Positions 7,593-61,010 of a stretch of 64,000 nucleotides of DNA are shown piece after piece. This stretch comes from Escallonia rubra. Lineage: Eukaryota; Streptophyta; Magnoliopsida; Escalloniales; Escalloniaceae. Each line of letters starts with the position of its first letter. The first letter of the stretch is position 1. Position numbers and translations under genes: made by a program. The DNA is taken from the NCBI GenBank assembly GCA_033065855.1, contig JAVXUO010000706.1, forward strand, positions 124,001-188,000, in the 5' to 3' direction. Under the pieces are notes generated by a model, which worked only from the letters and a program-made list of their open reading frames with translations, was not told the origin of the DNA and did no database searches.

Positions 7593-7727
7593 GCATGTTT
7601 ACGAGAGCTCGTTTACTGTTTAAGCATATATATGAAAGCTGAAGATTGAATTTTTATGGATAAAGACAAACTACATAAAGATCGAATTTTTATGGCTAAA
7701 GATTCAAATAAGATTTGAGATTATTAC

Positions 7728-15905: not shown

Positions 15906-16884
15906 CTAGAAAGAATGTGGAAAATCAATCACAGAAAATTCAAACCTTAGCAGAAAACCAAAAACCGATCTCGTTGCTAGAGTAACAAATAGTCGCCAAA
16001 CGTCTTCAGTAGCACGACGCAATAAAACTTAGTAAAACTCCTAGCACTCATTTTGTCACACATTTTCTGCAATACAGTGAAAATTAATAACTTGGACGAT
16101 TTTGATATACGGTAGCTTAATGGAGATGATGCATTAGACAATTACATGGTTCAATTATCTACTAATGTGATTCGGTCACGTATCACAAATTATTGTGCAT
16201 AAAATCGGTGCAAGTGTGCACTTAGTTATTGAAAAGCATAGTTATAATACCATACTAAAGTCCTTACCGTGTTTTTACATTAAATAATGGTACGTACAAG
16301 TACTATTCAAATTTGTCATCAACTATAAACATATAATACTCATTTACTTGCAAACTAAAAATATATAAACATATATCTTTTATCACATGTCCTCTAACAT
16401 AAACTGTTTGTGCTAATAGAGCTTGAATTACCTCATTTTTCAACTAAATTCTTTCTTCCTATACGAGTTTTTTATTCCGATACAGTGGCATTAATAACTT
16501 ATTCAATTTGAATTTCCTCCTCTGAAATCACCCCCTTCCAAGCTTATCTCGTTAGTGAATTCTTGTAGAAAAATAAGTTGTTTGTTCGAGCATAACATCT
16601 TTGACTTCAAGAGTAAGCTGTTTGTACGTGTGTAAAGCTGTACATAATATAGATAAAAGAATGAATGCTTCCAGCTATGAATTATTTCATTGCAATATTT
16701 TGACTGATAAGAAATATAAAAGGATACCTTGTCAATAAAAGACAAAAGTGATACGTACAGGCCGTTACGATATTGATAACTATTTTAAAAAGAAGTTAAT
16801 ATGTAAGCATATAAGCAAAGAAAAACAACTTTGCACATCCAGAATGTGTGTACACACACACACACACACATATATAGATATATA

Positions 16885-17460
16885 GGGACATGGTCCCTTA
16901 CCCTCGCAGGCAACTTAAGTTAAGTTGACAGCACGATATGGATGTCCATTCATCGATCTTGGATGGATGGACCAGGTCTAACTTTAAAAGAAAAACCCGT
17001 CGTCGGCTACATTATGTAACGGACGACGATTATAACGAAAATGTCTCAAATGGACTTAGTGAGTCGGAGGGAATCACAGGCAAATAGGACGGGCAATATG
17101 GTACGTAAACTTCACCCTCAGGAGTGAAGGTGAAGTTTACTTTAAAAAAAAATAGATTTGGTTAGTTTATCTAACAAATAGATTGATGACCAAATGTGGC
17201 TGAAAACTTAGCAGATCCATATCTACAGGTGCAGATCTTCACTACTCTGTCTAACTGCTACTCTTTGTACCGGTTAGGTTTGCCCCCCTATTTTCCTTGA
17301 TCCTATCGCTCTTTATGATACCTTCGGCTCGAGTGGACCCCTAACCGCTACTAAGTAAGTGTACAAAATATTCAATCAGAGTCATCTACGAGTTCTATTT
17401 GACTGCCAAATCACCAGTGGAGAAATAATATTTCCTTACCGATAGATGTAGATCAGCCCC
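16885..17460. mobile_element. MITE-like element abutting (AT)n, copy A
   Basis: Begins GGGACATGGTCCCTTACC after 'tatata' and ends TAGATCAGCCCC directly before (AT)9. The first 90 bp align loosely with the element at 3470 (ctcgc..gcaacttaa, then a tggatgtcca arm pair). A 'ggctacattatgtaacgga' palindrome sits near 17003. Its right end, read inward (GGGGCTGATC...CATC...CGG), also resembles the left end of the giant MULE at 21193. Non-coding. The same insertion is present in copy B (62289-62868), so it predates the duplication. Confidence 0.6.
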
Positions 17461-17510
<50 letters not shown>

Positions 17511-17636
17511 ACATATATACACATAAGCATATACGTATATGTATATGTGGGTGTGTGTGTACACACACACGCGCGCGCATACACATATACATATATGTAT
17601 ATGTAAATATATGTGTGTATATATAGACACACACAT
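17461..17636. repeat. Compound (AT)n-(GT)n-(CA)n microsatellite, copy A
   Basis: (AT)9 then (GT)n to about 17508, then alternating CA/TA/CG dinucleotide blocks to 17636. It is purine-pyrimidine alternating throughout and so potentially Z-DNA-forming. Copy B has the same structure with longer AT and GT runs. Further tracts of GT type lie at 17840-17895. 17900-18560 is ACC-rich then GGA-rich low-complexity DNA without a supported gene. Confidence 0.9.
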
Positions 17637-18584
17637 ACACTCTTCATATAAAGGGAATGACCTTTTGATGTAACACCTCTTTCAATGTTACATGCTTCTG
17701 ACACACTAAATTAGGAACACGCGACATTTAAGAATATTAAAAATTTGAGCTTTAACAAAAATGGTAACTAGCCGTAACCAACTCCAAACATGCATAACGT
17801 GTGCCAAAGAACTTAGTTAGGGTCTGCGGGTGGGTGGGCAGGCGTGGGTGGGTGTGGGTGTGTGTGGGTGTGTAGGTGTGTGTGTGTGTGGTGTGTACAC
17901 TCCTTACCATCATCAGTAATACAACGTGCCACCAACGTACCAGCAAGATAGATCTATAACACATGACCACCAACATATCTGGCACCACGAAGCTAATATT
18001 ACCCATCTTTGCCACACCGCCACCACTAGATCTGCCACCACTACGACATTATCTAACTCTGCCCTACCGCCATTACTCACCTCTGCGACCTCACCACCAA
18101 CAGATCTGGCACAACCACGCCATTACCCACATCCACGTTCCACATCGCCGCTAATAGATTTGACACCACCAAGCCATCACCCACTTTCGCCAAACTGCCA
18201 TTACACACAACCTCTAACATAGCTCCACCACCATACCCTCATTATTAGCCAAAGTGCCACCACCTGATTTTGAGAGGAGTAGGGGAAGAGGAAGCAACAG
18301 CAGAGACGGTGAAGGGGGGTGAGAGGAGAGAGACACTGAGGGGAACAGAGGAAGAGAGGGTGGAGAGAGAAAAAAATAACGGAATTGTTAGGGTTTTCAA
18401 GAGGGGATGAGGAGGCGGCAGCTGCCGAGGTAATGGGATGACGGTGGTGGCGAGGGCGGCTACACCGTGGTGTGGCAGTATGGCGGTGGTGGTTCATGAG
18501 GGAAGGGGGAAATATGTAGACTAGATAAAGAGAGGATCTCGGGTGCAAGGAGACAAACCAGATTGTAATTGAGGGGGATAGATG

Positions 18585-21138: not shown

Positions 21139-21190
<52 letters not shown>
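21139..21190. repeat. (AT)n microsatellite at left edge of MULE
   Basis: About 26 AT repeats. The adjacent GTGGGGGCCGATC resembles the (AT)n-abutting ends of the MITEs at 3470 and 17460 (inward GGAGCTGATC / GGGGCTGATC). Confidence 0.95.
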
Positions 21191-21193
<3 letters not shown>

Positions 21194-21896
21194 GGGGCCG
21201 ATCCCCATCGACCGGTTGGAAAAATCTTATTTTTCCACCCAACCGCTGCAAAGAGCAGCGGTTGCATTAAAGAAAGAAAAAACCAACCGCAACAAAGTGT
21301 TGCGGTTGGAATTATGCGGTACAAAAGCCCAACCGCAACTCTTTGTTGCGGTTGGCAATTATTTGCACACACTGTCCTTTCCCCCACCCCCCCACCCCTC
21401 CTTCCCCCCGTGGCCCCCACCCCCACCCCTCCTGGTCAAAAATCACGGCCGGAATTTCCCAACCGCAACAAAGAGTTGCGGTTGGCAATTCCTTCAAGAA
21501 TTGTCTTTTCCATCTCTTTCCCCGTGGCCCCCACCCCTCACCCCTCCTCCCCCCCGTGGCCCCCACCCCCTTCTCTGTCAAAAACGATGGCCGGAAAAGC
21601 CAACCGCAACAAAGGAAATTCTTGTTTCAGATTGTCCTTCCCCCCCCCCCACCCCGTGGCCCCCACCCCGTGGCCCCCACCCCCTTATTTCCCCCCACCT
21701 TTTCCAGCCGTGATGCCCCCTTCCCCCACCCGTGATTCCCCCTTCCCCCCATGTGTCATTTCCCCCCTCCCCCACCCCCACGTGTCATTCCCCCCTCCCC
21801 CCACCCCCACGTGTCATTTTCCCCTCCCCCACCCTACTGCTCACTCACGGATTTGTCCATCTTCTTTCTTTTCTCTCTCTCTCACACACTTTTCTC

Positions 21897-22066
21897 TCTA
21901 TAAAATCCCTCCTCCCCGAATCATTTCTTCCACTCTCCTCATTCTCAATATCTCACTTACATAATTTCCACAACAATACAAACAAAAAAAAATTTACGCT
22001 AGAAGATCGGTGGATAACCGCTAGAAGATCGGTGGGTTTTTCTTTAAATATATCAAGTTAAAACAA
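21897..22066 (+). promoter_or_regulatory. TIR promoter and spliced 5' leader for the PMD-C48 gene
   Basis: TCTATAAAAT at 21897-21906 follows a CT-rich tract. About 160 bp downstream 'aaacaa|gtaagt' offers a strong donor (intron from 22067). Acceptor 'ttcttag' lies at 25740-25747, just before the ATG at 25752. The leader contains a twice-repeated 'cgctagaagatcggtgg'. The same TATA box, leader and donor occur in inverted form in the right repeat, which supports function. Confidence 0.65.
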
Positions 22067-22149
22067 GTAAGTATTTTTCAAATTGTTCTTACCAATTGAT
22101 TGTTTAAATTGTGTTACGCTTAAATTGTTCTTACCATAGTCTAATATTC

Positions 22150-25100
22150 ATGTTTAGAGCGTCAAAATTACGTTTTTACAAATCGGGGTATTACATTCGA
22201 AAGATTCCAAAATAGCGATTTTTTAGGGTGTCAAAATTAGAATTTTTCACGAATTCATAAAAACTATCTAGAGCTAGATTTTGCCAAAGTGCAAAAAAGA
22301 GACCCTAATTATTTTCAAAAGATCTGTATCAGGTAAAAATTACAGATTTTTCCAAATACTGGAAAGGGGTTAGCTGATACGCGCAACCTTGTAACTTTAC
22401 AGTGTAATTTAAAATATCAAGCTAGCGCGATTTCGTGCGAAACTTTTATGAGAACCCTAGGATGTTGGGAACTTCCATTCCCTAGGAATTCGGGCCATTC
22501 CGAAGCTGTTAGCTATTTTTTTGGCAAAATGGGCTTTTAAGCGCTCGATCCGGACACCGGTTCGCGATTTTTGCGTAAAAAATCCGTAAAATACTTTTTA
22601 GATCAAGAATGAACTCAGGAAGTGTAAAATAGAATTTTAAAGCACTTTTGAGATTTTTCCTGATGCCAGGGGCATTTTGGTAATTTGCCACCCAACGAGG
22701 GGTATTTTGGTAATTTTCCTGATAAAGTTTTCCAACGGACTTGTTAGTCCAGAAATGTAAGCAAAGCACCTGAAAGGTTGTTTTGAAGCTGATTTGCGGG
22801 CGTAATTGTCGCTAAAGGAGAAAACTTAAGTTACCCCGTTTTTCATGAATTTGTAAAACATAGCTAGAGCATGATTTTTCCAAAGTGCAAAAAGGAGACC
22901 CTAGGTATTTTTAAAAGATCTGTATCTGGAAAAAATTTCAGATTTTTCTAAAGACTGGAAATGGGCTAACTAATACGGGGAACCTTGTATCTTCGCAGTC
23001 TAATTTAAAATACCAAGCTAGCGCAATTTCGTGCAAAACTTTTATGAGAACCCTAGGATGTTAGGAACTTCCATTCTCCAAGAATTTGGGCCATTCTGAA
23101 GCCGTTAGCTATTTTTTTGGCCGAACGGGCTTTTAAGCGCTCGATCCGAACATCGGTTCGCATTTTTTTGGCGAAAAATTCGTAAATTACTTTTTAGATC
23201 TAGAATGAACTCAGGAAACGTAAAATAGCATTTTAAAGCACTTTTTAGATTTTTCCTGATGCCAGGGTCATTTTGGTAATTTGCCACCCCGCGAGGGGTG
23301 TTTTGATAATTTTCCCGTGCCAAAGTTTTTCAAACGACTTTTTAGTCCAGAAATGTAAGCAAACCACCTGAAAGGTTGTTTTGAAGCTGGTTTGCGGGCG
23401 TAATTGTCGCTAAAGGTGAAAACTTAATTAGACAGTTTTTTCACAAATTTATAAAAAAATAGCTAGAGCATGATTTTGCCAAAGTACAAAAAATAGACCC
23501 TAGGTATTTTTAAAAGATCTATATCAGGGAACATTTTCAGATTTTTTCAAAGACTGGAAAAGGGGTAACTGATACGGGGAACCTTGTAACTTCGCAGTCT
23601 AATTTAAAATATCAAGCTAGCGCAATTTCGCCCGAAAATTTTGTGAGAATCCTAGGATGTTGGGAAGTTCCATTCCCCAGGAATTTGGGCCATTCCGAAG
23701 TCGTTAGCTAATTTTTTGGCCGAACGGGCTTTTAAGCGCTCGATTCGGACACCGGTTCGGGATTTTTGGGCGAAAAATCCGTAAAATAGTTTTTAGATCA
23801 AGAATGAATTCAGGAAGCTTAAAATAGCATTTTAAAGCAGTTTTGAGATTTTTCCTGATGCCAGGGGCATTTTGGTAATTTACGACCTCGAGAGGGGTAT
23901 TTTGGTAATTTTACGGTGTCAAGTTTTTCAAACGACTTTTTAGTCCAGAAATATAAGTAAAACACCTTAAATGTTGTTTTGAAGCCGGTTCGCGGGGCGT
24001 AATTGTCGCTAAAGGTGAAAACTTAAGTAGGCAGTTTTTTCACGAATTTATAAAACATAGCTAGAACTAGATTTTGCCAAGGTGCAAAAAAGAGACCCTA
24101 GGTATTTTTAAAAGATCTATGTCACGGAAAATTTTCAGATTTTTCCAAAGACTAGAAAGGGGCTAACTGATACGGGAAACCTTGTAACTTCGCAGTCTAA
24201 TTTAAAATATCAAGCTAGCGCGATTTCGCGCGAAACTTTTATGAGATCCCTAGGATGTTGGGAAGTTCCATTTCCCAGGAATTCGGGCCATTCCGAAGCC
24301 GTTAGCTATTTTTTTGGCCGAACGGGCTTTTAAGCGCTCGATCCGGACACCGGTTCGGGATTTTTGGACGAAACTTTTTCAAAATACTTTTTAGATCAAG
24401 AATGAATTCAGGAAGCTTAAAATAGCATTTTAAAGCAGTTTTGAGATTTTTCCTGATGCCAGGGGGCATTTTGGTAATTTGCGACCCTGAGAGGGGTGTT
24501 TTGGTAATTTTTCCGCTGTCAAGTTTTTCAAACGACTTCTTGGTCCATAAATGTAAGTAAAACACCTGAAACGTTGTTTTGAAGCCGGTTCGCGGGGCGT
24601 AATTGTCGCTAAAGGTGAAAATTTAAGTAGGCAGTTTTTTCACGAATTTATAAAACATAGCTAGAGCTAAATTTTGCCAAAGTACAAAAAAGAGACCCTA
24701 GGTATTTTTAAAATATCTGTGTCAGGAAAAATTTTCAGATTTTTCCAAAGACTGGAAAGGGGCTAACTGATACGGGGAACCTTGTAACTTCGCAGTCTAA
24801 TTTAAAATATCAAGCTAGCGCGATTTCGCGCGAAACTTTTATGAGAACCCTAGGATGTTGGGAAGTTCCATTTCTCAGGATTTCGGGCCATGCCAAAGTC
24901 GTTAGCTATTTTTTTTGCCGAACGGGCTTTTAAGCGCTCGGTCCGACCCTAGTTCGAAATTTTTGGTCGAAAATTTGCTAAATACTTTTTAGCTCAAGAA
25001 TGACTTCATGAGGCTTAAAATAGCATTTTAAAGCAGTTTTGAGATTTTTCCTGATGCCAGGGGGCATTTTGGTAATTTGCGACCCTGAGAGGGGTATTTT

Positions 25101-25200
25101 GGTAATTTTACGGTGTCAAGTTTTTCAAACGACTTTTTAGTCCAGAAATATAAGTAAAACACCTGAAATGTTGTTTTGAAGCTGGTTTGCGGCGTTAGGG
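22150..25200 (+). repeat. ~600-bp tandem repeats in left TIR (about five units)
   Basis: The word 'caagctagcgc(g/a)atttcg' recurs near 22417, 23015, 23614, 24210 and 24810 (period about 598 bp). Each unit has the same order of phrases, including 'gagaccctagg', 'ggaaccttgtaacttcgcag' and 'ggcattttggtaattt'. The last unit is cut by a different spacer ending near 25265. No coding evidence: frames differ between units. Confidence 0.88.
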
Positions 25201-25751
25201 TGACAATGAACCCCCGGAGACATTTCGATAATTTGTCGCCCATCAGGGGTATTTTGGTAACTGAACCAGCTTAAAATTATTCGTTATGACTTTTAGTTAT
25301 AGGATAGGGGTGTAAGACACCCGGAAAGTTATTTTGTTCCAGTTGTTCTGGGATGTGACACAGGGGCGATGACTGCCTGGGGGTATTTTGCATAAGTAGC
25401 GGGTGTTTTGGTAACTTTCCCCCTTTAAAATTTTTCCTGATATATTTGGTATATAATTGATGTAATACATTTAAAAACTTGACTTTAAAGCGGTTTTGAG
25501 GTGTTGGGGGTGTAGGGGCCATCGGGGGGTATATTGCTATATAACCACGTTGGCGCTAAATTCTTTGGGAACTAGCGTAATTAAGCGTTCGGAGTGGTGG
25601 GAAGTGAGGATTTGTTTTAATACATTGAAATAATGAGATAATGACTATTGCTAATGTGTTGGTAAGCTAGGTTAAAGATCCAGTTATAGTTTTGGAATGT
25701 AAATATTATGGACGCTAAGTTGGTTTATGATTATATTTTGTTCTTAGAGGT

Positions 25752-28751
25752 ATGAATTTCAGCCCCGGACCTCATGATACATCAATCCTATACGATGACG
25801 ATGACCACGTCGCGAGGCACGTATTTGACGGTGTCGATAGGGGTGTTTTGGAAACAATTCAAAGCACAAGTCACCTTGAAGAGTGGGTACTAAACGAGGA
25901 ACAAATACAACTATTACACCGTCAAAATTTATCTATGTTCACCGATTGCGGGATATGGTCTCGACACGACGATTGCCTTATATCCGCTCTAGTTGAACGA
26001 TGGAGGAGCGAGACGAACTCATTTCACTTCCGGTTTGGTGAAATGACTATTACGTTAGAGGACGTCGGATTTATACTTGGAATCCCATGTCACGGCAGAC
26101 CCATTACTCTGAGCAAAATGTCTGCATCCATAGCGAATATGGCTAGGCAGTATTTTCTGGGAATTCCAAGGGCAGCACTTACAACAAACGGCGTCAAGCT
26201 TAAATGGCTGAGAGAGCAGTACGGCGTGCTACCGGATGAATACACTCCTCATGATTTCGTGACGTATACGAAGGCATTCCTTCTGTATACTATTGGAGCT
26301 ATATTACTTCCGACACATTCGAAAAACACGGTGTATCCGAAGTATATGGTGTTCTTGGAAGATCTTGAGGATGTATACTCGTATTCGTGGGGTTCAGCTG
26401 TCCTTGCGCACCTATATCGAGCACTGCATAAGGCTACGAGAAACGGTGCCAAGTCCATTGCCGCCTGCCTGACTCTATTACAGGTATGAGCATTTATTTT
26501 CTTGTTTTGACGTGTCAATATATTCGTGATTAATTACTAATTCCATATAATGTTTGCATTCACAGGTTTGGTCTTACGAGAGGCTACCCACGGGTCGTCC
26601 ACAACCGCATGTAGATTCCGATGAGACGTGGCCTAGGGTGTGGGCCTGGGGGCCTACGACCAACCGGAGGAGGAGACGGGTAGACCCTCACCACCATCTA
26701 AAGTTCTATCGGGGGGAACTAGAGATACTGGATGCATCCCAGGTGACGTGGCAGCCATATGGCAAGGTGATGCATCAGTTGGATGAGTGGTGTTGGCAAC
26801 TTCCGGTGTCGTACGTGCTGGCAGGTTTGGTTCGGGTGCCGCTTATTCACTTCAAAAAATGTGAGTTTCAGATGCCCGATCGAGCTATGAAGCAAGCTGG
26901 CTGTCTACAAGGGATACCAAAACCCACTGTAGACATGCGGCCATACAAGAGTGGTCGAGGGCCGAACTTCGAGGTGGCTGATGCCTTAAATTTGTTGAAG
27001 GATGAGGTGCAACAGTGGAATACCTGGCAGGAAATGTATGATATCCTTGTATCACTGAAGCACGACGGCATCAGTACTGAGGACTACTTACAGTGGTTTC
27101 TCAAGGTGACGCGCACGAGGGTGAATCGCCCTTCCCAGGTGAGGAAGACATCGTATGCGCCACGTGAGTTCTATGACCAGTTCTGGGCATTGGACATTGT
27201 AAGTCATGCTAGTGTTGTTTCAATTTTTATTTGCGCACCTTATCGACCATGCCTGAAATGATTAGCCATATTTTCTATGCATGTTTTTTAGGTTGACCAG
27301 GGCACTGAGGTGTTCAAGCAGCTGGAGTCGTTTGACTGGTTTGTCGCGCAGGCTCCTGACACTCTCAAGAGGTCCATTGAGAGGTACAAGACTGAAGTTC
27401 ACAACTTTAGTGTTGCGTACCGGGGTTACCAAGGGGATCCGTCTAGTCGCAGGCCGGGTGACGCGTACGACTCTTTGCCCCAGAGTGTGGTGTGGGAGCC
27501 GTCTAGTCGTTTGCCTCCTGACGCGTACGACGGCTTGCCCCAGAGGGAATTCTGGGAGCCGTCTATTCGCTTGTCGACTGACGCGTACGACTCTCAGCCC
27601 CAGAGTAAGGTGTGGGAGCCGTCTAGTCACTTGCCACCTGACGTGTATGACTCTTTGCCCAGAGTGTGGTGTGGGAGCCGTCTTTTCGCTTGCCTCCTGA
27701 CACGTACGACTCTTTGTCCCAGAGGGAATTTTGGGAGCCGTCTATTCGCTTGCCTACTGGGGCGTACGACTCTCAGCACCAAAGTGGGGTCTCCCAAGTA
27801 GGAATCCAGGCCTCGCGCCCAAGGATCCGGTCGGGTAAAGGGCAAGCGACGAAGCCATTGAGGCCGGACAAGCGGGATTGGATCAGCCGACACTACTTCG
27901 AGCCTGAGCCCGTCGATACCTCAGAATTTCCTCTTGAAACATTGCTCTCTCATGATGATGTCAGACACTTGGCGCCGGAGACAGATATTTCAAATTTTGT
28001 CATGAACGCTTATATAGATCTGCTCCGGATTAGAGAGCTACGTTATAACCACTCTGAAGATTTGAAGCTTAACATGTATCCCACTTATTTTGTGGAATTA
28101 ATGGTGACCAGCATGAGGGAATTCACAGAATGGAGGAGGCAAGGGGCAGGCAGGGGTAAGTGGAAACCATCTGGAAACGTGTTAGGCATGTTGAACTCAG
28201 ACAATCAATGTCACGCTGCTCATGCGAACCTTATCATGATACCTTGTCATCATGCCCACCACTGGTTCCTATTAGTTCTCCATCCAGCGAACAGAGCGGT
28301 CCAAATATACGATAGCCTAAGGGAGGACGGACCTAGACAGACACTGGCACAGACGTACAGCGAGTACATCACTGCAGTTGTTAGTTTTTTTATTTTTTGA
28401 CCTTCGCTCTCTCCTATATTCTTCTTGTTACATAGGGATGATGACCTTTTTTATTGTTGGATGCAGACTACTATCCTCTCGCTAGCGTGCCAAGATTATT
28501 CGGGTGAGACCATCACTACGAATTTGAGGGTAGAGCCTTGGACGGTCGCGATGATACAGGACCGACCAAAGCAATATAACAGTCACGATTGCGGGATTTA
28601 TGTCCTCAAGTACATGGACTACATTGCTCGCTTGGAGGTGCTCAAATATACGTCGTGGACTAGGAAGGATGCCTTGACGTTTAAGTATAGGATAGCCTGG
28701 GAGCTGAAAAAGAATGAAGCTAGACGCCTTCATTACCATTATCCTAACTAG
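25752..28751 (+). CDS. PMD-C48: plant mobile domain fused to Ulp1-like cysteine protease (four exons, one frameshift)
   Basis: Exons 25752-26483, 26566-27198, 27292-28379 and 28467-28751, all with GT/AG borders and fitting phases, about 912 residues. Residues ~50-400 form the plant mobile domain (ALVERWRSETNSFHFRFGEM, VWSYERLPTGRP, EDYLQWFLKVTRTRV). Residues ~506-625 are six 20-residue repeats (SSRLPPDAYDGLPQREFWEP type). The C-terminus is a C48/Ulp1-type protease with H in HHWFLLVLHP (~779), D in IYDSL (~796), Q in PKQYNSHDCG (~854) and C in the same motif (~860), so the catalytic set is complete. Ulp1 proteases cleave SUMO; the substrate here is unknown. A CCCC-to-CCC change near 27660, in the fourth 60-bp repeat, breaks the frame once; sequence error is possible. 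Expression would start in the left terminal repeat. Comparable PMD and ULP genes ride in Kaonashi-type MULEs. Confidence 0.87.
27427..27790 (+). repeat. Six 60-bp coding tandem repeats in PMD-C48 linker
   Basis: Each unit encodes about 20 residues with the pattern S-x-R-L-P-x-D-A-Y-D-S-x-P-Q-x-x-x-W-E-P. The DNA units differ by only a few bases, implying recent expansion. Units 2/5 and 3/6 are the most alike, suggesting duplication of a three-unit block. Confidence 0.9.
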
Positions 28752-28794
28752 CGTAGCTAAGGTGCAATGAGCAAAGAACATTGAAAAAAAATGT

Positions 28795-30835
28795 ACATAA
28801 TTTTTTGCAAGCATTGAGTTTGGCGCTAAAGATTGTGCAAATAGGCCCTTCATAGGAAAACCCAAAAAAATAGCGTCTCGTTTTCGCCGAAATTCTTACG
28901 AATGGGCTAACGCGCGCGCCTGAGTTGCAATGAGCGAAAAAAAAGTGACAAAAAAATTACAAGATTTTTCGGAAGTTATGAATTGGGCCCTAAAGTGTGC
29001 CCGAATAGGCCCTTCATAGGAAAACCCAAAAAATAACGTGTCTCGTTTTTTGCCAAAATTCTTACAAGTGGGCTAACTAGTGTGCCTGAGGTGCAATGAG
29101 CGGAAAAAAAAAAAAAAAAAAATTACAAGATTTTTCGGAAGTTATGAATTGGGCCCTAAAGTTTGCCCGAATAGGCCCTTCATAGAAAAATCCAAAAAAT
29201 AACGTGTCTCGTTTTTCTCCAAAATTATTACAAATGGGCTAACTAGCGTGCCTGAGGTGCAATGAGCGGAAAAAAGTGACAAAAAAAATTACAAGATTTT
29301 TCGGAAGTTATGAATTGGGCCCTAAAGTGTGCCCGAATAGGCCCTTCATAGGAAAATTCAAAAAATAACGTGTCTCGTTTTTTGCCAAAATTCTTACAAA
29401 TGGGCTAACTAGCGTGCCTGAGGTGCAATGAGCGAAAAAAAAGTGACAAAAAAAATTACAAGATTTTTCGAAAGTTATGAATTGGGCCCTAAAGTGTGCC
29501 CGAATAGGCCCTTCATAGGAAAACCCAAAAATTAACGTGTCTCATTTTTCGCCGAAATTCATAAAAATGGTCTAACTAGCGTGCCTAAGGTGTAATGAGC
29601 GAAAAAAAGTGACAAAAACAATTATAAGATTTTTCGAAAGTTATGAATTGGGCCCTAAAGTGTGCCCGAATAGGCCCTTCATAGGAAAACCGAAAAAATA
29701 ACGTGTCTTGTTTTTCGCCGAAATTCTTACGAATGGGCTAACTAACGTGCCTGAGTTGCAATGAGCAAAAAAAAGTGACAAAAAAAATTACAAGATTTTT
29801 CGAAAGTTATGAATTGCGCCCTAAAGTGTGCCCAAATAGGCCCTTCATAGGAAAACCCAAAAAATAACGTGTCTCGTTTTTCTCCGAAATTCTTACGAAT
29901 GGGCTAACTAGCGTGCCTAAGGTGCAATAAGCGAAAAAAAAGTGACAAAAAAAATTACAAGATTTTTCGGAAGTTATGAATTGGGCCCTAAAGTGTGTCC
30001 GAATAGGCCATTCATAGGAAAACCCAAAAAATAACGTGTCTCGTTTTTCGCCGAAATTCTTACAAATGGGCTAACTAGCGTGCCTGAGGTACAATGAGCG
30101 AAAAAAAGTGACAAAAAAAATTACAAGATTTTTCGGACGTTATGAATTGGGCCCTAAAGTGTGCCCGAATAGGCCCTTCATTGGAAAACCCAAAAATTAA
30201 CGTGTATCCTTTTTCGTCGAAATTCTTACGAATGGGTAAAATAGAGTGCCTGAGGTGCAATGAGTGAAAAAAAGTGACAAAAAAAAATTACAAGATTTTT
30301 CGAAAATTATGAATTAGGCCCTAAAGTGTGCCCGAATAAGCCTTCATAGGAANAACCCAAAGATAACATGTATCGTTTTTTGCCGAATTTCTTTCCAATG
30401 AGCTAACCAGCGTGACTGAGGTGCAATGAGTGAAAAAAAGTGACAAAAAAAAATTACAAGATTTTTCGAAAATTATGAATTAGGCCCTAAAGTGTGGCCG
30501 AATAGGCCCTTCATAGGAAAACCCAAAAAAATAACGTGTCTTGTTTTCGCCGAAATTCTTACGAATGGGCTAACTAGCTTGCCTGAGGTGCAATGAGCGA
30601 AAAAAAAGTGACAAAAAAATTACAAGATTTTTCGGAAGTTATGAATTGGGTCCTAAAATGTGCCCGAATAGGCCATTCATAGGAAAACCCAAAAAATAAC
30701 GTGTCTCGTTTTTCGCCAAAACTCTTCCAAATGGGCTAACTAGCGTGCCTGAGGTGCAATGAACAAAAAAAATTACAAGATTTTTCGGAAGCTATGAATT
30801 GGGCGCTAAAGTGTGCGCGAATAGGCCCTTCCAAA
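28795..30835. repeat. ~166-bp minisatellite, 13 units, between the convergent MULE genes
   Basis: The phrase 'gggccctaaagtgtgcccga' recurs near 28816 (variant), 28982, 29149, 29316, 29483, 29647, 29814, 29982, 30150, 30315, 30481, 30646 and 30802. Each unit also has 'gcaatgagcgaaaaaaagtg', 'attacaagatttttcg' and 'aacgtgtctcgttttt'. Outer units are more diverged. One undetermined base (n) occurs at 30353. No gene within; it separates the two 3' ends. Confidence 0.93.
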
Positions 30836-30939
30836 AATATCAATAATCCACAAACCAAATCACAAATTAAAGATTCAACAAACCAAATCACAAATTTAAA
30901 CATTATAAAAGTTTTCCTTATACAACTGAAACATTAACC

Positions 30940-33241
30940 CTAACACTCTTCATCATCATCGTCCTCCTCGACCATATTGCCAGGTTCGAGACCTAACACT
31001 TTATAATGATTTCTCTTGTCATGATCAGTCATCTTATTACACAACGCACACTTTCGCAATTTTTTTTGACCCGTTGCTTTTTCAATCGGATTCTTCATGC
31101 GTATTTCTCGTTTTCGCCCTTTTGTTTGAGATATAATTGGATCGAAATTGTGGTTCTCCTCTCCTTGCGTGATAGTGCTGTTAATGGCTGGCTGTTTGGC
31201 TCGATTGAATCTACCGGTTGGGGTCGTCCGAGTAGTTGGAGTGTCCCGTCTTTCTTGTAATGCCATCCTAAACTGTGCATGCTTAGCCTTATCCCGTGCG
31301 GCTGCTTCAACTTGATACCTGTACCCATCAAATGTTGACGCTGCATCCAATGATAAACCGTGCATGATGTTACAAAGGTGATTATATCGCAGCGTCTCAG
31401 ATTGCTCGAAATCAATTGAAACATTGGGCACGTAAGGAATGTGACCGTGGACTCTATTGGCTTCCTTCGTCCACCGTTCCAAGATATACTGTGGAGGGAT
31501 TTCACGAGCATTCTTGGCGCTCAAAACCCTCAACGCGTGTCGACAAAGTATACATTTATGCTCAAACAATTGACAGTTGCAATTTACCAACCCGGTGTCC
31601 ATACATTTAGCCACAGTAAAATGTCTTCTGTTCCTCGGAGCCGACGAAGAGCACGGATTGGCGAAATTCGTCACATTTGTCAAAGCATAAACCTTGCGAT
31701 CTTTCGTGGAATACTCGTGCAACTTTGTCATGCCATATTGATTTGACTTTAGTAGGTCATCTTGAAACTTTCTAATCATTTCATTTGTATAGACTTGAGC
31801 CGCATGAGCCTCCAAAGGTGAAAAGAGTCGTATGGCTCTTTCTCTGTAAACTGTAGCCGCGTCTGCTTCTCTCTCACGGTACAATTGCCTGTCAACGGTT
31901 TTCTACATCTCTAGTACAAACTTCACTATACTTGAAGACTGGCTTATATACCCATCAAAGAATGAATTCATAGCTTCGCTTCTCAAGGTCGTAGTCATTC
32001 CGGCTGCAAAAAACTTCTTGGTGTAGGCACCGACCCACTGTGTCTTGATCTCATACAACGATTGTAACCAGTCATGATTGTGCAAATAGTAGTCATCCAT
32101 TAACGTGGCCCACCTCTCCTCGAACACGTCTACCGTCAACGATTTCTTCACACATGTATTAAAGTCAGTCTTGAATTTCGGATGGTTTGCATATACATTG
32201 TGAAGCCGTTCGGGATATTTGTTGCTTATGTGCCATGTGCACAGGCCATGCTGAGTATCTGGAAGGACCTTAGCAATTGCATTTTTCATTGCCAGATCTT
32301 GGTCGGTGATGATGGTCTTTGGAGGAATATGATACATTGCTTGAAGCCACGTTTCAAATAACCACGTAAATGACTCCTCCGTCTCATCCCTAAGCAGGGC
32401 AAAGCCAAACGAGATTGATTGATAGTGGTGGTTCATCCCGATGAACGGAGCAAAAGGCATAGAGTACTTATTGGTGCGGTATGTGGTGTCAAACGTCACA
32501 ACATCCCCAAAATTTTGGTAAGCAGCTCTAGAACAGGGGTCCGCCCAAAATATAGTACTAATGCGGATGTCTTCATGCAGTTGGAAACTGTAGAAAAATC
32601 CAGAATTCTCACTCTGAAGGCACCTGAAGAGATCAAGTGTAGCTTGAGAATCACTCTTACCGAAAGACTCTCTCCTCTAAGCACGAAGTTCATTTCGAAG
32701 GTCTACTTCGTTGAAACTCAACTTGTCAATCCCTCCAGCCTGGCTTGAGAAAACCCCCCATCATCTTAGAAGGTGGAATTTTAGTCTCGGCCATTGTAAA
32801 AATAAGTTGTCTGTGTGCCGCGCTTATTTCTCGGTGTTGATGAATTTGACAAATCTTACTAGGGGTCATCAACTGATGATTATGGCTCAACTCCACTCCC
32901 GTCACAACCCAATGGTTTTCATTTTTCCGGTGTACTGCATACACATGGGCCTTGCAGCCGGTACCCGAAAATGTGTCCCGTTTTCTTTGTCTTGTTGTCC
33001 CTTCGTCACTGATCCGAACAACCGGGGGTACATGCGGTGCTCCTCTATGACACCCAAATAGTCTTCCACAAATTTGATCTGTATTCGCCCGTTTTCTAGT
33101 CGTCTTAGTTCTAATACCGAAACCTATCATTTTTGAATATGCTCTATAGTATGCTTCAACTTCGTCCAGTGTTTGAAAAACTTGACCCAAGTAAGGTGGA
33201 TCAGAATCTTCACAAAAATTATTTCCTCCAGTTGAATCCAT
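30940..33241 (-). pseudogene. FAR1/MULE-type transposase of the giant element (broken)
   Basis: A Mutator-superfamily transposase cuts and joins element ends. From the ATG at 33241: a FAR1-type DNA-binding domain at residues ~15-120 (AYYRAYSKMIGFGIRTKTTR), a MULE DDE core with D in VTFDTTYRTNKY (~248), D in IITDQDLAM (~313) and E in LRSEAMNSFF, and a SWIM zinc finger CNCQLFEHKCILCRH (~552-566). A C-terminal CALCNKMTDHDKRNH cluster and an acidic tail follow. Total about 767 residues. Three lesions show: a frame change in the G-run near 32745 and in-frame stops at 32677-32679 and 31903-31905. A possible acceptor (ttttttag) at about 33262 and the right-repeat donor would give a leader intron across the TIR. 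No intron was seen within the coding part. The copy is probably inactive now. Confidence 0.87.
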
Positions 33242-33354
33242 ATTTATACTGAAATCTAAAAAATAAAAATTATATCATTCTCAATAAGTCATAGAATTAA
33301 ATAAAAGAAGAATAAAAATTATTTAAACATAATTGTTGGAAAATTTGTATAATG

Positions 33355-36300
33355 TAAAATTACCAAAATAGCCCCCGATGAGCGGCAAATTACGGAAATG
33401 CCCCAGGGGGTTCATTATCACCCTAACGCCCCAAATCAGCTTCAAAACAACCTTTCAGGTGCATTGCTTACATTTCTGGACTAAGAAGTCCTTTGAAAAA
33501 CTTAATGCTGCAAAATTACGAAAATACCCCTCTTGGGGCTGCGAATTACCAAAATGCCCCCTGGCATCAGAAAATCTGAAAAGTACTTTGAAACGGGATT
33601 TTAAACTTCCTGAATTCACTCTTTAAAATAACTTTTTGGATGTCTCACACCCTTACCTGAACTAAAAGTTATTTTAAGCACAAATTTGTGTAATGTAAAA
33701 TTAGCAAAATACCCCCGATGGGCGGCAAATTACCGAAATGCCCCCCAGGGGTTCATTGTCACCCTAACGCCCCACATCCGTATGAGAACAACCTTTCATG
33801 TGTTTTACTTACATTTCGAGACTGAAAAGGCGTTTGAAAAACTTGACACCGTAAAATTACCAAAAATACCCCTCTCGGGGTGACAAATTACCAAAATGCC
33901 CCCTGGCATCAGAAAATCTCAAAAGTGCTTTAAAATGCTATTTTAGGCTTCCTGAATTCATTCTTGATCTAAAAAGTATTTTGCAAAAGTTTCGCCCAAA
34001 AATCTCGAACCGGTGTTCGGATCGAGCGCTTAAAAGCTCGTTCGGCCAAAAAAATAGCTACCAGCTTCGGAAGGGCCCGAATTCCGGGGGAATGGAACTT
34101 CCCAACATCTTAGGGTTCTCACAAAATTGCCGCGCAAGATCGCGCTAGCTTAATATTTTAAATTAGACTGCGAAGTTACAAGGTTCCCCGTATCAGTTAG
34201 CCCCTTTCCAGTCTTTGGAAAAATATGAAAATTTTCCCTGACACAGATCTTTTAAAAATACCTAGGGTCTCTTGTTTGCACTTTCACAAAATCTAGCTCT
34301 AGCTATTTTTTATAAATTCGTGAAAAAATTGCCTACTTAAGTTTTCACTTTTAGCGACAATTACGCCCCGCCAACCAGCTTCAAAACAACATTTCAGGTC
34401 TTTTACTTACATTTCTGGACTAAAAATTCGTTTGAAAAACTTGACAGGGTAAAATTACCAAAACACCCTTCTCGGGGTGACAAATTACCAAAAGTGCTTT
34501 AAAATGATATTTTACGCTTCCTGAGTTCATTCTTGATCTGAAGAGTATTGTACGGATTTTTCGCCCAACAATCCCGTACCGGTGTCTGGATCGAGCGCTT
34601 AAAAGCCCGTTTGGCCAAAAAAATAGCTAACGGCTTCGGAATGGCCCGAATTCCTGGGGAATGGAAGTTCCCAACACCCTAGGGTTCTCATAAAAATTTT
34701 GCGTGAAATTGCGCTAGCTTGGTGTTTTAAATTAGACTGCGAAGTTACAAGGTTCCCCGTATCAGTTAGCCCCTTTCCAGTCTTTGAAAAATCTGAAAAT
34801 TTTCCCTGGTATAGATCTTTTAAAAATACGTAGGGTCTCTTTTTTTGTACTTTGGCAAAATCATGCTCTAGCTATTTTTTATAAATTTGTGAAAAAACGG
34901 GGTAACTTCATTTTCACCTTTAGCGACAATTACGCTCGCAAACCAGCTTCAAAACAACCTTTCAGGTGCTTTGCTTACATTTCTGGACTAAAAAGTCGTT
35001 TGAAAAACTTTGGCACGGGAAAATTACCAAAACACCCCTCGCGGGGTGGCAAATTACCAAAATGTCCCTGGCATCAAGAAAAATCTCAAAAGTGCTTTAA
35101 AATACTATTTTACGTTTCCTGAGTTCATTCTAGATCTAAAAAGTATTTTACGGATTTTTCGCCCAAAAAAAGTGAACCGGTGTCTAGATCGAGCTCTTAA
35201 AATCCCGTTCAACCAAAAAAATAGCTAACGGCTTCATAATGGCCCGAATTCCTGAGAAATGGAAGTTGCCAACATCCTAGGGTTCTCATAAAATTTTTGG
35301 GCGAAATTACACTAGCTTGGTATTTTAAATTAGACTGCCAAGTTACAAGGTTCCCCGTATCAGTTAGCCCCTTTCCAGTCTTTGGAAAAATCTGAAAATT
35401 TTTCCTGATACAGATCTTTTAAAAATACCTAGGGTCTCCTTTTTGTACTTTGGAAAAATCATGCTCTAGCTATGTTTTATAAATTCGTGAAAAACGGGGT
35501 AACTTAAGTTTTCTCCTTTAGTGACAATTACGCCTGCAAATCAGCTTCAAAACAACCTTTCAGGTGCTTTGCTTACATTTCTGGACTCACAAGTCCATTG
35601 GAACACTTTATTGGGAAAATTACCAAAATACCCTTTTCGGGTGGCAAATTACCAAAATGCCCCCTGGCATCAGGAAAAATCTCGAAAGTGCTTTAAATGC
35701 TATTTTACGCTTCCTGAGTTCATTCTTGATCTAAAAAGTATTTTACGGATTTTTCGCCCAAAAATCCCGAACCAGTATCTGGATCGAGCGCTTAAAAGCC
35801 TGTTTGGCCAAAAAAATAGCTAACGGCTTCAGAATGGCCCGAATTCCTGGGGAAAGGATGTTCCCAACATCCTAAGGTTCTCATAAAAGTTTCGCGTGAA
35901 AATCGCGCTAGCTTAATATTTTAAATTAGACTGCGAAGTTACAAGGTTCCCCGTATCAGTTAGCCCCTTTACAGTCTTTGGAAAAATCTGAAATTTTTAT
36001 GATACAGATATTTTGAAAATAACTAGGGTCTCTTTTTTGCAGTTTGGCAAAATCTAGCTCTATATAGTTTTTATGAATTCGTGAAAATTTCTAATTTTGA
36101 CGCCCTAAAAAATCGCTATTGTGGAATCTTTCGAGTGTAATACCCCGATTTGTAAAAACGTAATTTTGACGCTCTAAACACGAATATTAGACTATGGTAA
36201 GAACAATTTAAGCGTAGCACAATTTAAACAATCAATTGGTAAGAACAATTTGAAGAATACTTACTTGTTTTAACTTGATATATTTAAAGAAAAATCCACC

Positions 36301-37098
36301 GATCTTCTAACAGTTATCCACCGATCCTCTAGCGTAAATTTTTTTTGTTTGTATTATTGTGGAGATTATCTAGGTGAGATAGGGAGAATGAGGAGAGTGG
36401 AAGAAATGATTCGGGGATGAGGGATTTTATAGACAGAAAAGTGAGAGAGGAATATAAGAAAGAAGACGGACAAGTCCGTGAGTGAAGAGTAGGGTGGGGG
36501 AGGGGGGAATGACACGTGAGGGTGGGGGGAAAGGACACGTGGGGGTGGGGGAGGGGGGGAAATGACACGTGGGGGGAAGGGGGAATCACGGGTGGGGGAA
36601 GGGGGCATCACGGCTGGAAAAGGTGGGGGAAAGGACATAGGGGGTGGGGGCCACGGGGTGGGGGGGGAAGGACAATCTGAAACAAGAATTGCCTTTGTTG
36701 CGGTTGGCTTTTCCGGCCGTCGTTTTTGACCGAGAGGGGGGTGGGGGCCACGGCGGGGAAGGAGGGGTGAGGGGTAGGGGCCACGGGGAAAGAGATGGAA
36801 AGGACAATTCTTGAAGAAATTGCCAACCGCAACTCTTTGTTGCGGTTGGGCAATTCCGGCCGTGATTTTTGACTAGGAGGGGTGGGGGGTGGGGGCCACG
36901 GGGGGGAAGGAGGGGTGGGGGTGGGGGAAAGGACAGTGTGTGCAAATAATTGCCAACCGCAACAAAGAGTTGCGGTTGGGCTTTTGTACCGCATAATTCA
37001 AACCGCAACACATTGTTGCGGTTGGTTTTTTCTTTCTTTACTGCAACCGCTGCTCTTTGCAGCGGTTGGGTGGGAAAATAAGATTTTTCCCACCGGTC
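33355..37098 (-). repeat. Right terminal inverted repeat of the MULE
   Basis: About 3.75 kb, inverted match to the left repeat. It includes about four ~590-bp units ('gctagc' words near 34143, 34715, 35312 and 35906), the leader and TATA box (36264-36431), and the outer G-rich/CCGCAAC palindrome zone (36600-37090). Confidence 0.88.
36264..36431 (-). promoter_or_regulatory. TIR promoter and spliced leader for the transposase gene
   Basis: Minus-strand TATAAAAT at 36431-36424, with the leader ending at donor 'aaacaa|gtaag' (intron from 36264). It is the inverted twin of 21897-22066. It would drive transcription inward to the ATG at 33241. Confidence 0.65.
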
Positions 37099-37314
37099 CG
37101 GTTTGATGGGTGAAACCAGCCCATTTAAGAAATGACCGAATTGACCCATTAATAAATGGATATAAATGGGTCAGTCATCCATTTAAACCAAACCCGTTTG
37201 ACTCACACCCAAACCCAACCCACCCACCCACTTTGCCACCCCTAGTCTCTATAAATCAGGTATTATGGCTGATACTTTCAGCAACGATTAAACAATATTG
37301 AGCACTGATTTTAC

Positions 37315-39104
37315 CTTTGCAACCATCCAAAAGGTAAGGATTCCCCTCAAAGCCTGCTGAACAATTGCACAGATACCCCGATCCGTTGGTTGAGTTGATA
37401 CATGTGCTATTCTTTGCTCGACACGCATAGCTTGTATTAGATTGAGCTTCTGCGCAATTCTCCTCTCCTACTGCATAATCAAGCACGACGGGTACTGGCT
37501 TCATTTCACGAAAGTCCATAAGGTCTAGTGAAGAAAATTTGAAAGCCTTTTCTTCTACAACAAAAGCATGGCTACAAGGGGCAAATTTTGGTACTTTCGT
37601 CCCAAAGGGGATAAGCGTAAAAATAGAATCCCTGATTCCTTTAGGAATGGAAGTCTGGCAACAGCCAACCCCGGAACACGAGCCGTTTACCACATTCTCA
37701 AGGTCTCCACACTGTGATATGCATCCGGTAGAGTAATTCTGTCCGCCAATTTCTTGGATTGTGGCAGCCGTGGCACAGCCAACCGCAGTAAACTTGTTAT
37801 AAATATTAGAGATGGCAAATTTTGACAGCCTAAGGCGCGGGGACCTGCTCTTGCCTTTGATTCGCTCTCTAGATTTGTCATAGCAGTTACCCGCTACGAC
37901 GACATAAATGCGTTTCAGGCCATCAAGTGATACGTTATGTACGTCTATAGTAGTACTTTTGCGCAAAAAAGCCTTGGGAGGACTAAAAGTTTGGTTGCAA
38001 GTGATGAGGAAAGAATCGTCAAGGTAGCATTCTGGGCTTGTACCAAATGGGTGTTGGAATTGGGTTTTAACCCATTGTGGAAAAGCAACTTTGGCTCAAT
38101 TTTCAAATGGGTTCCAAACCATAGTTTGGTTAGGAACAAATTGATTCATGTTCATTTATTGAAATAGATGATCATAGTATATTCACATGTTTAAAACGAA
38201 TGGGAAGTGAATGAGAAAATTGAAGTTAAAGTTGGTGGTTTACCTTGAAGGGAAAAGAGTATCCCACATTGAAGAGATAAAGCCAATGTTGTCTCCTTAT
38301 AAGGCTTAACCTTGAGCTAAGGGTTGGGTCCCTTGGGGGTACCCATGTTTTGTAAGGAGGGAGGACCTAGGTTGACCCAAGGTCCACCACACGCGCGCGC
38401 CGCCCGTCCCGGTCCGTGGCCGTGGCTTGGGCCCATCAGGTTTTATTCTTTTTGGGACAAAAACATTTTAAATAAATTTTATTTATTTATTTATTTTCTT
38501 TTCCGAAAAGTTGTGACCTTTCCAACTTACAGTTTTTCCTGTGACCCCCCAGTGAATACTCGGTGTATAAAAACGAGAGTCAGTTTTTCAGAAGTTATTA
38601 ATTTTTAACCCGAAATGGTCTTCTGTCATTTTTTATGATGTGTCGTTTTTCCTGTGTCCGAAAGAGTTCTGTGCCATAGTTTTGGTTCGCCGGGTCTGCA
38701 AATTTGGAGTGCTCTTATTTCTAGACGTACTACCGCTGTATCCTGGGAGGCTTTTCGTCAAGAGACCGTTAGCACCATTGCGGGACGAATAAAGTCTTAA
38801 GGACAGTGAATCAAATTCACGCCTCGGCCCTTTTTCCTTTGCTGTTCTGCAATCTTGTTGTGAGTTTACGTTACTGCTGTTTTTGAAACCTTTATATTTG
38901 CATGCCATTAAATATTCGAAACTGATTTTCTACACAAGTACACAAAGTATATATTTCGCCCAACAATGGGAAAGGGATATCTCTAAGCTCGCCACATTCA
39001 GTAGGGCAACCGAAGTTGGACTGATATGTGGCTGCTATCTTGGGTGCTGCTGATATTGCTGCAAACAAGGTAAAAGGCAGAAGCAATATCAGACTCCAGG
39101 CCAT
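37315..39104 (-). pseudogene. WAK pseudogene A, exon 1 (signal peptide and galacturonan-binding domain), split by a solo LTR
   Basis: The first exon of the WAK gene whose exons 2-3 lie at 15905-14034. The start ATG at 39102-39104 gives MAWSLILLLPFTLFAAISAA, a signal peptide, then CPTECGELRDIPFP. After the inserted LTR (38052-38965) the same frame resumes with FGTSPECYLDDSFLITCN, the conserved GUB_WAK pectin-binding core. It runs on through CGDLENVVNGSCSGVGCC and a WAK-associated EGF-like part (CINSTNGSGYLCNCSAGFEG) to GNPYLLDGCK, and the donor 'aaag|gtaaaa' at 37314. Phase fits exon 2 (DIDEC). The LTR interrupts the domain, so no normal receptor can be made. The intron of about 21.4 kb contains the hAT/MULE nest. 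Confidence 0.88.
38052..38965. mobile_element. Solo LTR inside WAK A exon 1
   Basis: 914 bp, TGTTGGAATT...CCCAACA, with the 5-bp target duplication ATGGG on both sides (38047-38051, 38966-38970). No internal retrotransposon region is present, so this is a solo LTR left by LTR-LTR recombination. A TATAAGG box lies near 38297. The family is uncertain (copia or gypsy). The exact target duplication suggests a fairly recent event. Confidence 0.85.

Positions 39105-60972: not shown

Positions 60973-61010
<38 letters not shown>

Follow-up and report, generated by a model that had tools for sequence, protein, structure and literature searches.

A FAR1-type Mutator-like transposon family of Escallonia rubra with convergent transposase and PMD-C48 protease genes

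The locus considered here lies in a 64,000-nucleotide stretch of the Escallonia rubra genome (GenBank JAVXUO010000706.1, positions 124,001 to 188,000), hereafter the window, and raises the question of whether a protease gene found opposite a transposase gene between long inverted repeats is a working part of the transposon that carries it. A first-pass annotation had placed a single element with two inward genes at 21210..37098, and this arrangement was borne out: a transposase gene with FAR1, MULE and SWIM domains is located on the minus strand and converges with a plus-strand gene encoding a plant mobile domain (PMD) and a C48 peptidase domain. The left end had to be moved to 21193, beside an (AT)26 microsatellite, while the right end at 37098 was retained, with the terminus there being incomplete.

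Organisation of the window copy

The features of the window copy are as follows.

21139..21190, no strand: (AT)26 microsatellite, the insertion site, flanking the left end of the element
21193..37098, no strand: whole element; right terminus without its last 17 nt
21193..25249, plus: left terminal inverted repeat (TIR) arm, ~4.06 kb
21193..22000, no strand: left subterminal zone with eight occurrences of CCAACCGC/GCGGTTGG (palindromic units)
22243..25192, no strand: 598-bp tandem array of the left arm, 4.9 units
25752..26489, plus: PMD-C48 exon 1, N-terminal half of the PMD (PF10536, E 7e-45)
26551..27261, plus: PMD-C48 exon 2, C-terminal half of the PMD (E 1.7e-18)
27292..27801, plus: start of PMD-C48 exon 3, encoding a linker; 60-bp (20-aa) repeats occupy 27434-27773
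27651..28400, plus: C48 peptidase domain, part 1 (PF02902), with catalytic H at 28260 and D at 28311
28401..28751, plus: C48 peptidase domain, part 2 (PF02902), with catalytic Q at 28572 and C at 28590
28744..30831, no strand: minisatellite of 12.7 units of 166 bp, separating the 3' ends of the two convergent genes
30940..31902, minus: C-terminal part of the transposase, SWIM zinc finger (PF04434)
31903..32676, minus: MULE catalytic domain of the transposase (PF10551, E 2.7e-33)
32726..33274, minus: N-terminal part of the transposase, FAR1 DNA-binding domain (PF03101); ATG at 33241, predicted from the frame
33372..37098, minus: right TIR arm, ~3.7 kb, terminus absent
33932..36087, no strand: 598-bp tandem array of the right arm, 3.7 units

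The two genes meet at the minisatellite, as had been proposed. The inverted repeats of about 4 kb described in the first-pass annotation do exist as arms, which align over 2.6 kb at 91.8% in a single alignment, with segments reaching 25249 and 33372, and they are largely made of tandem 598-bp units. The palindromic units of the left subterminal zone are mirrored on the right side by seven occurrences in 36301-37098; beyond these zones they are absent from the rest of the element and occur once elsewhere in the window.

The transposase gene of this copy contains a frameshift near 32750-32757 and in-frame stops at 32677-32679 and 31903-31905; the stop bounding the MULE domain piece is absent from the C485 copy described below. 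In the PMD-C48 gene, the start codon of which was likewise deduced from the reading frame, the frame changes near 27654-27660, within the 60-bp linker repeats, whose number varies among family copies (frame lengths differ by 20-aa steps). The codons for the H-D-Q-C catalytic set are all present in the C48 domain, as previously noted. With both genes broken and the right terminus incomplete, the window element is a defective relic copy, and no target site duplication (TSD) is readable for it, since the last 17 nt of its right end are missing.

The transposase had been called MuDR-like. This class was rejected on domains, the transposase being of the FAR1 type, and no MuDR-type N-terminal Pfam model was matched. 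The FAR1 N-terminus, the MULE domain and the SWIM finger together constitute the domain set of the Jittery dicot/monocot sub-group. FAR1 N-termini are tabulated for this sub-group in PMC6446971, and also for half of one Hop sub-group including plants. The domain composition fits Jittery-type, TA-targeting MULEs, FAR1 not being exclusive to Jittery. Sequence searches against PDB returned no relative of the MULE domain up to E 1 and none of the PMD exon (best E 0.81).

Copies of the family across the genome

A 25-nt family-terminus pattern (with five free and three two-way positions) gave 420 exact matches in 566 Mb and none for the reversed control; the terminus of the window copy differs from it by one inserted base. 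The further copies that the first-pass annotation proposed to search for do exist, as additional loci have the same termini and both genes. C48 and transposase matches located within 20 kb of each other are convergent in 30 of 30 pairs among the matches listed. In the C485 copy, a single outer pair of long, array-bearing TIRs encloses the transposase gene, with an open, uninterrupted frame of 777 aa, and a convergent PMD-C48 gene, the PMD of which has a frame break; open frames exist for each gene, in separate copies. Among the matches listed (148 and 150 scored matches), 7 of 24 terminus pairs hold a transposase match and one, that of C485, also a C48 match; the tally has no bearing on whether the remaining pairs hold both genes. 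In the copies read, full elements span ~12-16 kb and TIR arms ~1 to 5 kb. Two internally deleted copies were read, one without most of PMD exon 2 and the transposase, the other without C48 and most of the transposase, and therefore the genes can be lost. The window element belongs to a large family of Mutator-type transposons of FAR1-MULE-SWIM (Jittery-like) composition, which was apparently amplified in recent times, and its two-gene plan is real and general.

Separate nested elements, the opposing explanation named in the first-pass annotation, were looked for, and nothing points to nesting. Had one element, bearing the PMD-C48 gene or the transposase, entered another, the junction might lie concealed in the minisatellite that separates the two genes; no support for such a composite was found. 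The convergent pairs of this family and of the second family described below (16 of 17), among the matches listed, as well as the one outer TIR pair around both genes in the C485 copy, speak against it, and on this multi-copy evidence it was rejected as extremely improbable.

Insertion into TA microsatellites

A dinucleotide run of at least 10 nt adjoins 20 of 24 distinct family ends, versus 182 of 20,000 control positions in the window, and the remaining four ends lie in interrupted AT-rich repeats. The terminus pattern used in this survey missed the L004 end, a second L003 end and the right end of the window copy, all three of which were observed separately. The family inserts into TA-type microsatellites. 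TSDs of 8-11 bp are indistinguishable from the flanks, since the ends seen sit in dinucleotide or AT-rich repeats. The flank of L004 is also an interrupted AT-rich repeat. Microsatellite targeting and the defects of the window copy had been overlooked in the first-pass annotation.

A second family and selection on the two genes

At the left edge of the window, a second family was found with the same two-gene plan, its domain pieces being only 25-63% identical. PMD and transposase matches of this family within 12 kb of each other are convergent in 16 of 17 pairs among the matches listed, and its C48 domain retains H-D-Q-C. Because so diverged a family has the same plan, the two genes have stayed together. 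Since the plan recurs in other copies and in the second family, the protease gene seems to be a functional component of the transposon.

In the main family, pooled pN/pS was 0.51 for C48, 0.44 for PMD exon 2 and 0.44 for the transposase, whereas shifted-frame controls gave 0.89-1.23 overall and 0.94-1.17 for C48 and PMD exon 2. The transposase set was built with a lower redundancy threshold (20 sequences), and alignments covered by less than 90% were dropped (2 of 37 for C48, 9 of 34 for PMD exon 2 and 0 of 31 for the transposase). To judge from these ratios, purifying selection acts on both genes; a pN/pS near 0.5 is moderate constraint only. All 35 C48 copies in the alignment retain the catalytic H, and all 35 retain the D (Q and C fall outside that alignment). 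A Mantel test on 12 linked gene pairs (of 30) gave r 0.92, reached by 11 of 5000 permutations, and r 0.52, reached by 123 of 5000, without the window copy. This co-divergence carries little weight, since the main-family pairs are too similar, and the second family is stronger evidence for the association of the genes.

Comparison with known elements

Maize MuDR is bounded by TIRs and carries two convergent genes, mudrA and mudrB. This plan is shared by the Escallonia element, which differs from MuDR in its FAR1-type transposase, PMD-C48 second gene, microsatellite targets and far larger TIRs. Plant MULEs with Ulp1 domains appear in publications from 2006-2008 onwards.

Like the Escallonia family, MuTAnT/AutoMuTAnT of Medicago and the SaTar/Micron elements combine insertion into (TA)n with a G-rich extreme terminus and short non-autonomous relatives (PMC4486113, PMC5907723); AutoMuTAnT also has a Jittery-like transposase (PMC4486113), and SaTars stack in microsatellites (PMC5907723). 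However, AutoMuTAnT is 4.9 kb long with one ORF, as against Escallonia elements of ~12-16 kb with array-built TIRs, and the MuTAnT TIR mask GGGGTTTGCTAGAACA differs, compared by eye, from the Escallonia family terminus GGGGGCCGATCC; the available part of the source makes no mention of a PMD or C48 gene for AutoMuTAnT (PMC4486113). In grapevine MULEs, including Jittery-like ones, and in melon, a Jittery- or MuDR-like transposase has a ULP sequence downstream in either orientation; compared by description only, these elements differ in that neither a PMD part nor microsatellite targeting is mentioned in the available text, which states no TIR length for Jitvine-1 and -2 (PMC2528002).

Kaonashi (KI) MULEs carry a C48 gene opposite the transposase, as in the Escallonia family (PMC2528002), and VANC resembles this family in its DUF1985 domain, in the tandem peptide repeats separating its conserved domains and in the tandem arrays held by its non-coding parts (PMC5735166). 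In contrast to the TIR arms of the Escallonia family, KI and VANDAL are non-TIR elements (PMC2528002, PMC5735166, PMC13317346), the TIRs of VANDALs being degenerate (PMC10398659) and those of the Escallonia family giant. The best profile of the Escallonia gene is PMD, not DUF1985 as in VANC, and anti-silencing, which is reported for KIU and VANC (PMC5735166, PMC13317346), is for PMD-C48 inferred only. In MUDR-clade MULEs, PMD lies antisense to the transposase, as in the Escallonia family, but the transposase is of another group; FAR1 is unlisted for group 50 save two Phytophthora elements (table in PMC6446971), and a term search of the main text of that paper returned neither 'protease' nor 'ULP'.

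The first-pass annotation could match the architecture to no described family. The combination of Ulp1, antisense PMD and TA targeting was indeed not found in the literature searched, and Repbase may hold a consensus, but each of the three, including ULP1 in Jittery-like MULEs, has been printed. One element here unites what had been described separately as TA-targeting MULEs, antisense PMD genes, MULE-borne Ulp1 and VANC.

Possible role of the PMD-C48 gene

PMD exon 1 of the window copy matches DUF1985 at E 3.3e-5 (24.3 bits, below the cut-off of 35.1), and three other family copies exceed the Pfam cut-off for this domain. Reciprocally, a DUF1985 protein of the same genome matches PMD at 1.6e-6, below the cut-off for PMD, and hhalign of the two gave E 2.5e-5 over 150 columns with a probability of 75, for a shallow alignment. 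PMD exon 1 thus seems to be related, remotely, to a domain of VANC. The C48 domain of the C2282 copy was aligned at H-D-Q-C with SENP2 (whole-sequence E 4.1e-7), the H-D stretch alone aligning weakly (i-Evalue 6.7); a C48 fold need not imply SUMO specificity. KIU, which combines VANC with Ulp1, reportedly causes its own group to become hypomethylated, and according to a 2026 review the precise function of MULE Ulp1 domains is still unknown (PMC13317346).

By analogy, one could propose that the transposase binds the subterminal palindromes and performs cut-and-paste transposition into (TA)n, while PMD-C48 would be the self-protection factor of the element, comparable to VANC and KIU for VANDAL elements. 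The DUF1985-related PMD and the linker of 20-aa repeats would recognise the element's own non-coding arrays, where the Ulp1-like domain would clear proteins of silencing or chromatin of SUMO, or of a modifier related to it, and would in this way keep the elements expressible. As a whole, this explanation of PMD-C48 as a VANC/Kaonashi-like factor of a TA-targeting family is plausible and the likeliest of those considered, with its chances falling somewhat short of even. Its narrower form, a sequence-guided deSUMOylase in which a PMD/DUF1985-type reader, with a repeat linker of variable length, directs an active Ulp1 domain to the arrays of 598-bp and 166-bp units so that silencing dependent on SUMO is removed there, is doubtful. 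If it were true, PMD-C48 of FAR1-type TA-targeting elements and DUF1985-C48/KIU of VANDALs would represent one ancient anti-silencing gene in distant MULE clades. A search of the non-coding modules for common 9-mers yielded no convincing binding motif; some 9-mers occur in three of the five modules but are not argued as a motif, because the modules in one arm share their ancestry with those in the other. A many-copy family with open frames, a constrained protease and candidate target arrays makes the action of a guided SUMO protease against silencing testable.

In maize MuDR, MURB may act in transposition itself, e.g. in integration. PMD-C48 might similarly help the transposition reaction if it trimmed the transposase or host repair factors or took modifications off them, as its gene is convergent with the transposase, like mudrB, the pair is kept in two diverged families, and within the main family both genes appear to evolve under purifying selection. 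Such a role is, however, unlikely, given that the resemblance found is to DUF1985/VANC rather than to a transposition factor, and that rice Abermu elements without an opposite-strand gene are described as recently active, with data not shown (PMC9168764). Self-protection could alternatively proceed without sequence-specific DNA recognition, if the element PMD interfered with MAIN/MAIL1-PP7L and C48 de-SUMOylated that machinery. MAIN and MAIL1 are host PMD proteins that act in silencing, not against it (PMC5418596), which speaks against the self-protection factor proposed above. For interference with them, TE-borne PMDs have been suggested as possibly counter-silencing (PMC5418596, PMC8616336), and four full-length PMD genes are clustered on C922 of the genome. 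This interference would leave the repeat linker and the arrays unexplained, and we regard it as quite unlikely.

MULEs often capture genes, and PMD-C48 could be a host gene acquired by transduplication, with no function for the element. The patchy occurrence of ULP1 regions among grapevine MULE families would agree with this (PMC2528002). Against such a passenger, which we consider highly improbable, stand the same placement of the gene in two greatly differing families with the catalytic residues retained, and pN/pS values of 0.44-0.51 versus 0.94-1.17 in shifted frames for C48 and PMD exon 2.

Structure of the window copy

The Mutator-type element of the window has inverted arms running inward from 21193 and 37098, with the following features between them.

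Features of the window copy
25752–26489, + strand: plant mobile domain (PMD) exon 1 (PF10536, E 7e-45)
26551–27261, + strand: PMD exon 2 (PMD profile match)
27434–27773, + strand: linker with 60-bp repeats, between PMD and C48
27651–28400 and 28401–28751, + strand: C48 (Ulp1/SENP-type) peptidase domain in two pieces (domain match)
28744–30831: 166-bp minisatellite, 12.7 units, where the transposase and PMD-C48 genes converge
33274–30940, − strand: FAR1-MULE-SWIM transposase (domain matches)

The convergence of two genes on a minisatellite, proposed in the first-pass annotation, was thus borne out, the 166-bp array (28744–30831) lying between the plus- and minus-strand genes. The bulk of the arms consists of 598-bp tandem units (4.9 left, 3.7 right), and the number of units therefore sets arm length. 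Relative to the frames of C485, a whole copy on another contig, the transposase has a frameshift near 32750–32757 and in-frame stops at 32677–32679 and 31903–31905, and the reading frame of the PMD-C48 gene shifts near 27654–27660, inside the linker repeats. The catalytic H-D-Q-C set, earlier described as intact, is indeed present (codons H 28260, D 28311, Q 28572, C 28590), although the copy is a relic.

Alignment with the ends of other copies placed the start of the element 17 nt farther out than the originally annotated position 21210, at a G-rich end of the GGGGGCCGATCC type that immediately follows an (AT)n-type repeat. Dinucleotide runs of 10 nt or more adjoin 20 of 24 distinct family ends (control: 182 of 20,000 random window positions), these being the ends nearest to the query, a non-random sample lacking three aligned ends that escaped the terminus pattern; the remaining four lie inside interrupted AT-rich repeats. 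One shorter copy (C2282) was inserted in an AC/AT compound repeat. The right end of the window copy lacks its last 17 nt and is fused to other DNA, so that a target duplication is illegible there. The joined sequence (37100–37260), which we take to resemble a hAT-type element end (CCACCCCTAG), may mark the event that removed these nucleotides. Palindromic subterminal units on CCAACCGC/GCGGTTGG occur eight times in 21193–22000 and seven times in 36301–37098, with one occurrence in the window beyond the element, and are candidate transposase-binding sites.

A family with paired genes

The window element is one member of a family. A 25-nt IUPAC terminus pattern matched the 566-Mb assembly exactly at 420 sites, 212 in forward and 208 in reverse orientation, and its reversed control had none; among the 100 sites listed, 24 convergent neighbouring pairs spanned 1.3–15.2 kb. 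Searches with C48 and the transposase returned 2043 and 3221 candidates, respectively, which are not confirmed copies. Of the C48 candidates, 150 were scored, all with at least 81% identity, and in 143 of them the matched stretch was stop-free, while many of the 148 scored transposase matches had open frames of 777–780 aa. Among the matches listed, all 30 C48/transposase pairs within 20 kb on one contig, window copy included, were convergent; a further C48 copy outside these pairs (contig C191) has an opposite-strand transposase about 3 kb away.

The C485 copy measures 14.7 kb end to end, with microsatellite on either side. Its arms are roughly 3.3 and 5 kb long, and one of them holds 3.9 units of a 597-bp array. 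Between the arms lie a PMD whose frame is broken, C48, an array of 165-bp units and a transposase that is uninterrupted over 777 aa. Two shorter copies of about 6 kb, C2282 and C430, are internal-deletion forms: in one, PMD exon 2 and the transposase are each largely gone, and in the other C48 is missing along with most of the transposase. No single copy with both genes open was found among those read.

A second family on the same plan

A second element, cut by the left edge of the window (about −3103 to 3451, L097), was read using contig DNA beyond it. Transposase pieces on the plus strand are 63% and 48% (MULE), 34% and 42% (FAR1) and 34% (SWIM) identical to the main element; on the minus strand, identities are 47%, 59% and 41% for pieces of PMD exon 1, 35% for exon 2, and 25% and 33% for C48. 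The decayed C48 keeps H (GDHWY), D (VLDIL), Q (PKQ) and C (DCG). TA/TG runs flank its ends, GGGAGCTGATC(C), and the inverted repeat is 218 bp long and 87.6% alike. It is a strongly diverged two-gene element on the plan of the main one.

The second family looks large as well: PMD candidates number 3651 and transposase candidates 3563, with 150 of each kind scored, and these sets may overlap those of the main family. Among the matches listed, 16 of 17 PMD/transposase pairs within 12 kb were convergent, the exception (C873) having its genes 8.9 kb apart and facing away; C48 as part of the gene was seen in one copy. The transposase and PMD gene have therefore been kept together across a long divergence.

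A piece of 220 bp (3470–3689), bearing GGAGCTGATC ends in both orientations, is lined up end to end with the second element inside one (AT)n run, followed by (AT)32 (3691–3754); this looks like non-nested microsatellite stacking, as described for SaTar arrays.

Selection and divergence

Pooled pN/pS in the main family, from the loci nearest to the query and hence a non-random sample, was 0.51 for C48 (26 sequences; shifted frames 0.94/1.00), 0.44 for PMD exon 2 (21 sequences; 1.09/1.17) and 0.44 for the transposase (20 sequences; 0.89/1.23). All 35 aligned C48 copies retained catalytic H and D. In linked pairs involving contigs C1523 or C1589, C48 differs by about 3–4.6% and the transposase by about 1%, while the closest linked pairs show the reverse, C48 being less diverged. 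Either faster evolution or exchange between copies could account for this contrast; in VANDALs, VANC is described as fast and VANA as more conserved (PMC5735166).

Nature of the PMD-C48 protein

The PMD part is probably related to DUF1985, judging from profile and alignment matches. The window exon matches DUF1985 below the cut-off (E 3.3e-5), and in the genome scan three loci (L090–L092), with PMD exons 84–90% identical to it, exceed the cut-off. Conversely, a DUF1985 protein of the E. rubra genome (L089) matches PMD at 1.6e-6, below the PMD cut-off, and its alignment with the family exon covers 150 columns at 27% identity (probability 75, E 2.5e-5). For C48 of the C2282 copy, the match to SENP2 has a whole-sequence E of 4.1e-7, with an i-Evalue of 7e-4 for the Q-C stretch and a weak 6.7 for the H-D stretch. 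A 20-aa repeat of variable copy number lies between PMD and C48, and frame lengths among similar C48 copies differ in steps of 20 (316/336/356 and 341/361/381/401/421). KIU, VANC genes with Ulp1, are credited with hypomethylation of their own group in a review (PMC13317346). Given the DUF1985 kinship, SENP2-like C48, variable repeat and KIU hypomethylation, the best supported reading is that PMD-C48 would act as an anti-silencing factor removing SUMO or a related modifier, each functional step being one that we infer.

The best-scoring matches of the PMD search were four full-length genes clustered at G000:C922:1278226-1296817 (frames 643–689 aa), possibly host MAIN/MAIL-type genes.

Relation to published elements

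Published TA-microsatellite MULEs include MuTAnT, whose autonomous element is 4.9 kb, single-ORF and Jittery-like (PMC4486113), SaTar and Micron (PMC5907723), and the mMITEs of pineapple, whose autonomous partner was not found (PMC8449440). Other descriptions cover ULP1 regions in MULEs of grapevine and melon, some of them Jittery-like (PMC2528002), an antisense PMD in most MUDR-group MULEs (PMC6446971), MULE-captured PMDs as proposed anti-silencers (PMC5418596), and an opposite-strand gene without assigned function in barley Abermu (PMC9168764). TA-microsatellite MULEs, MULE-borne ULP1 and antisense PMD are thus known separately; no paper uniting PMD, Ulp1/C48 and MULE was found in a search that had most subscription papers and Repbase outside its reach.

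Genomic surroundings

The main element lies between the copies of a tandem segmental duplication (4230–18584 and 48093–63998; 92.6% and 95.5% identity in two main blocks). A wall-associated kinase (WAK)-like exon (37256–38095, −; Pfam WAK under its cut-off) adjoins its right end, and the element may lie inside or beside a WAK-type gene. A protein kinase domain (59414–60523, −) falls within the duplicated block, and a CC-NB-ARC-LRR resistance-type gene has a 1018-aa open frame at 41898–44954 (−).
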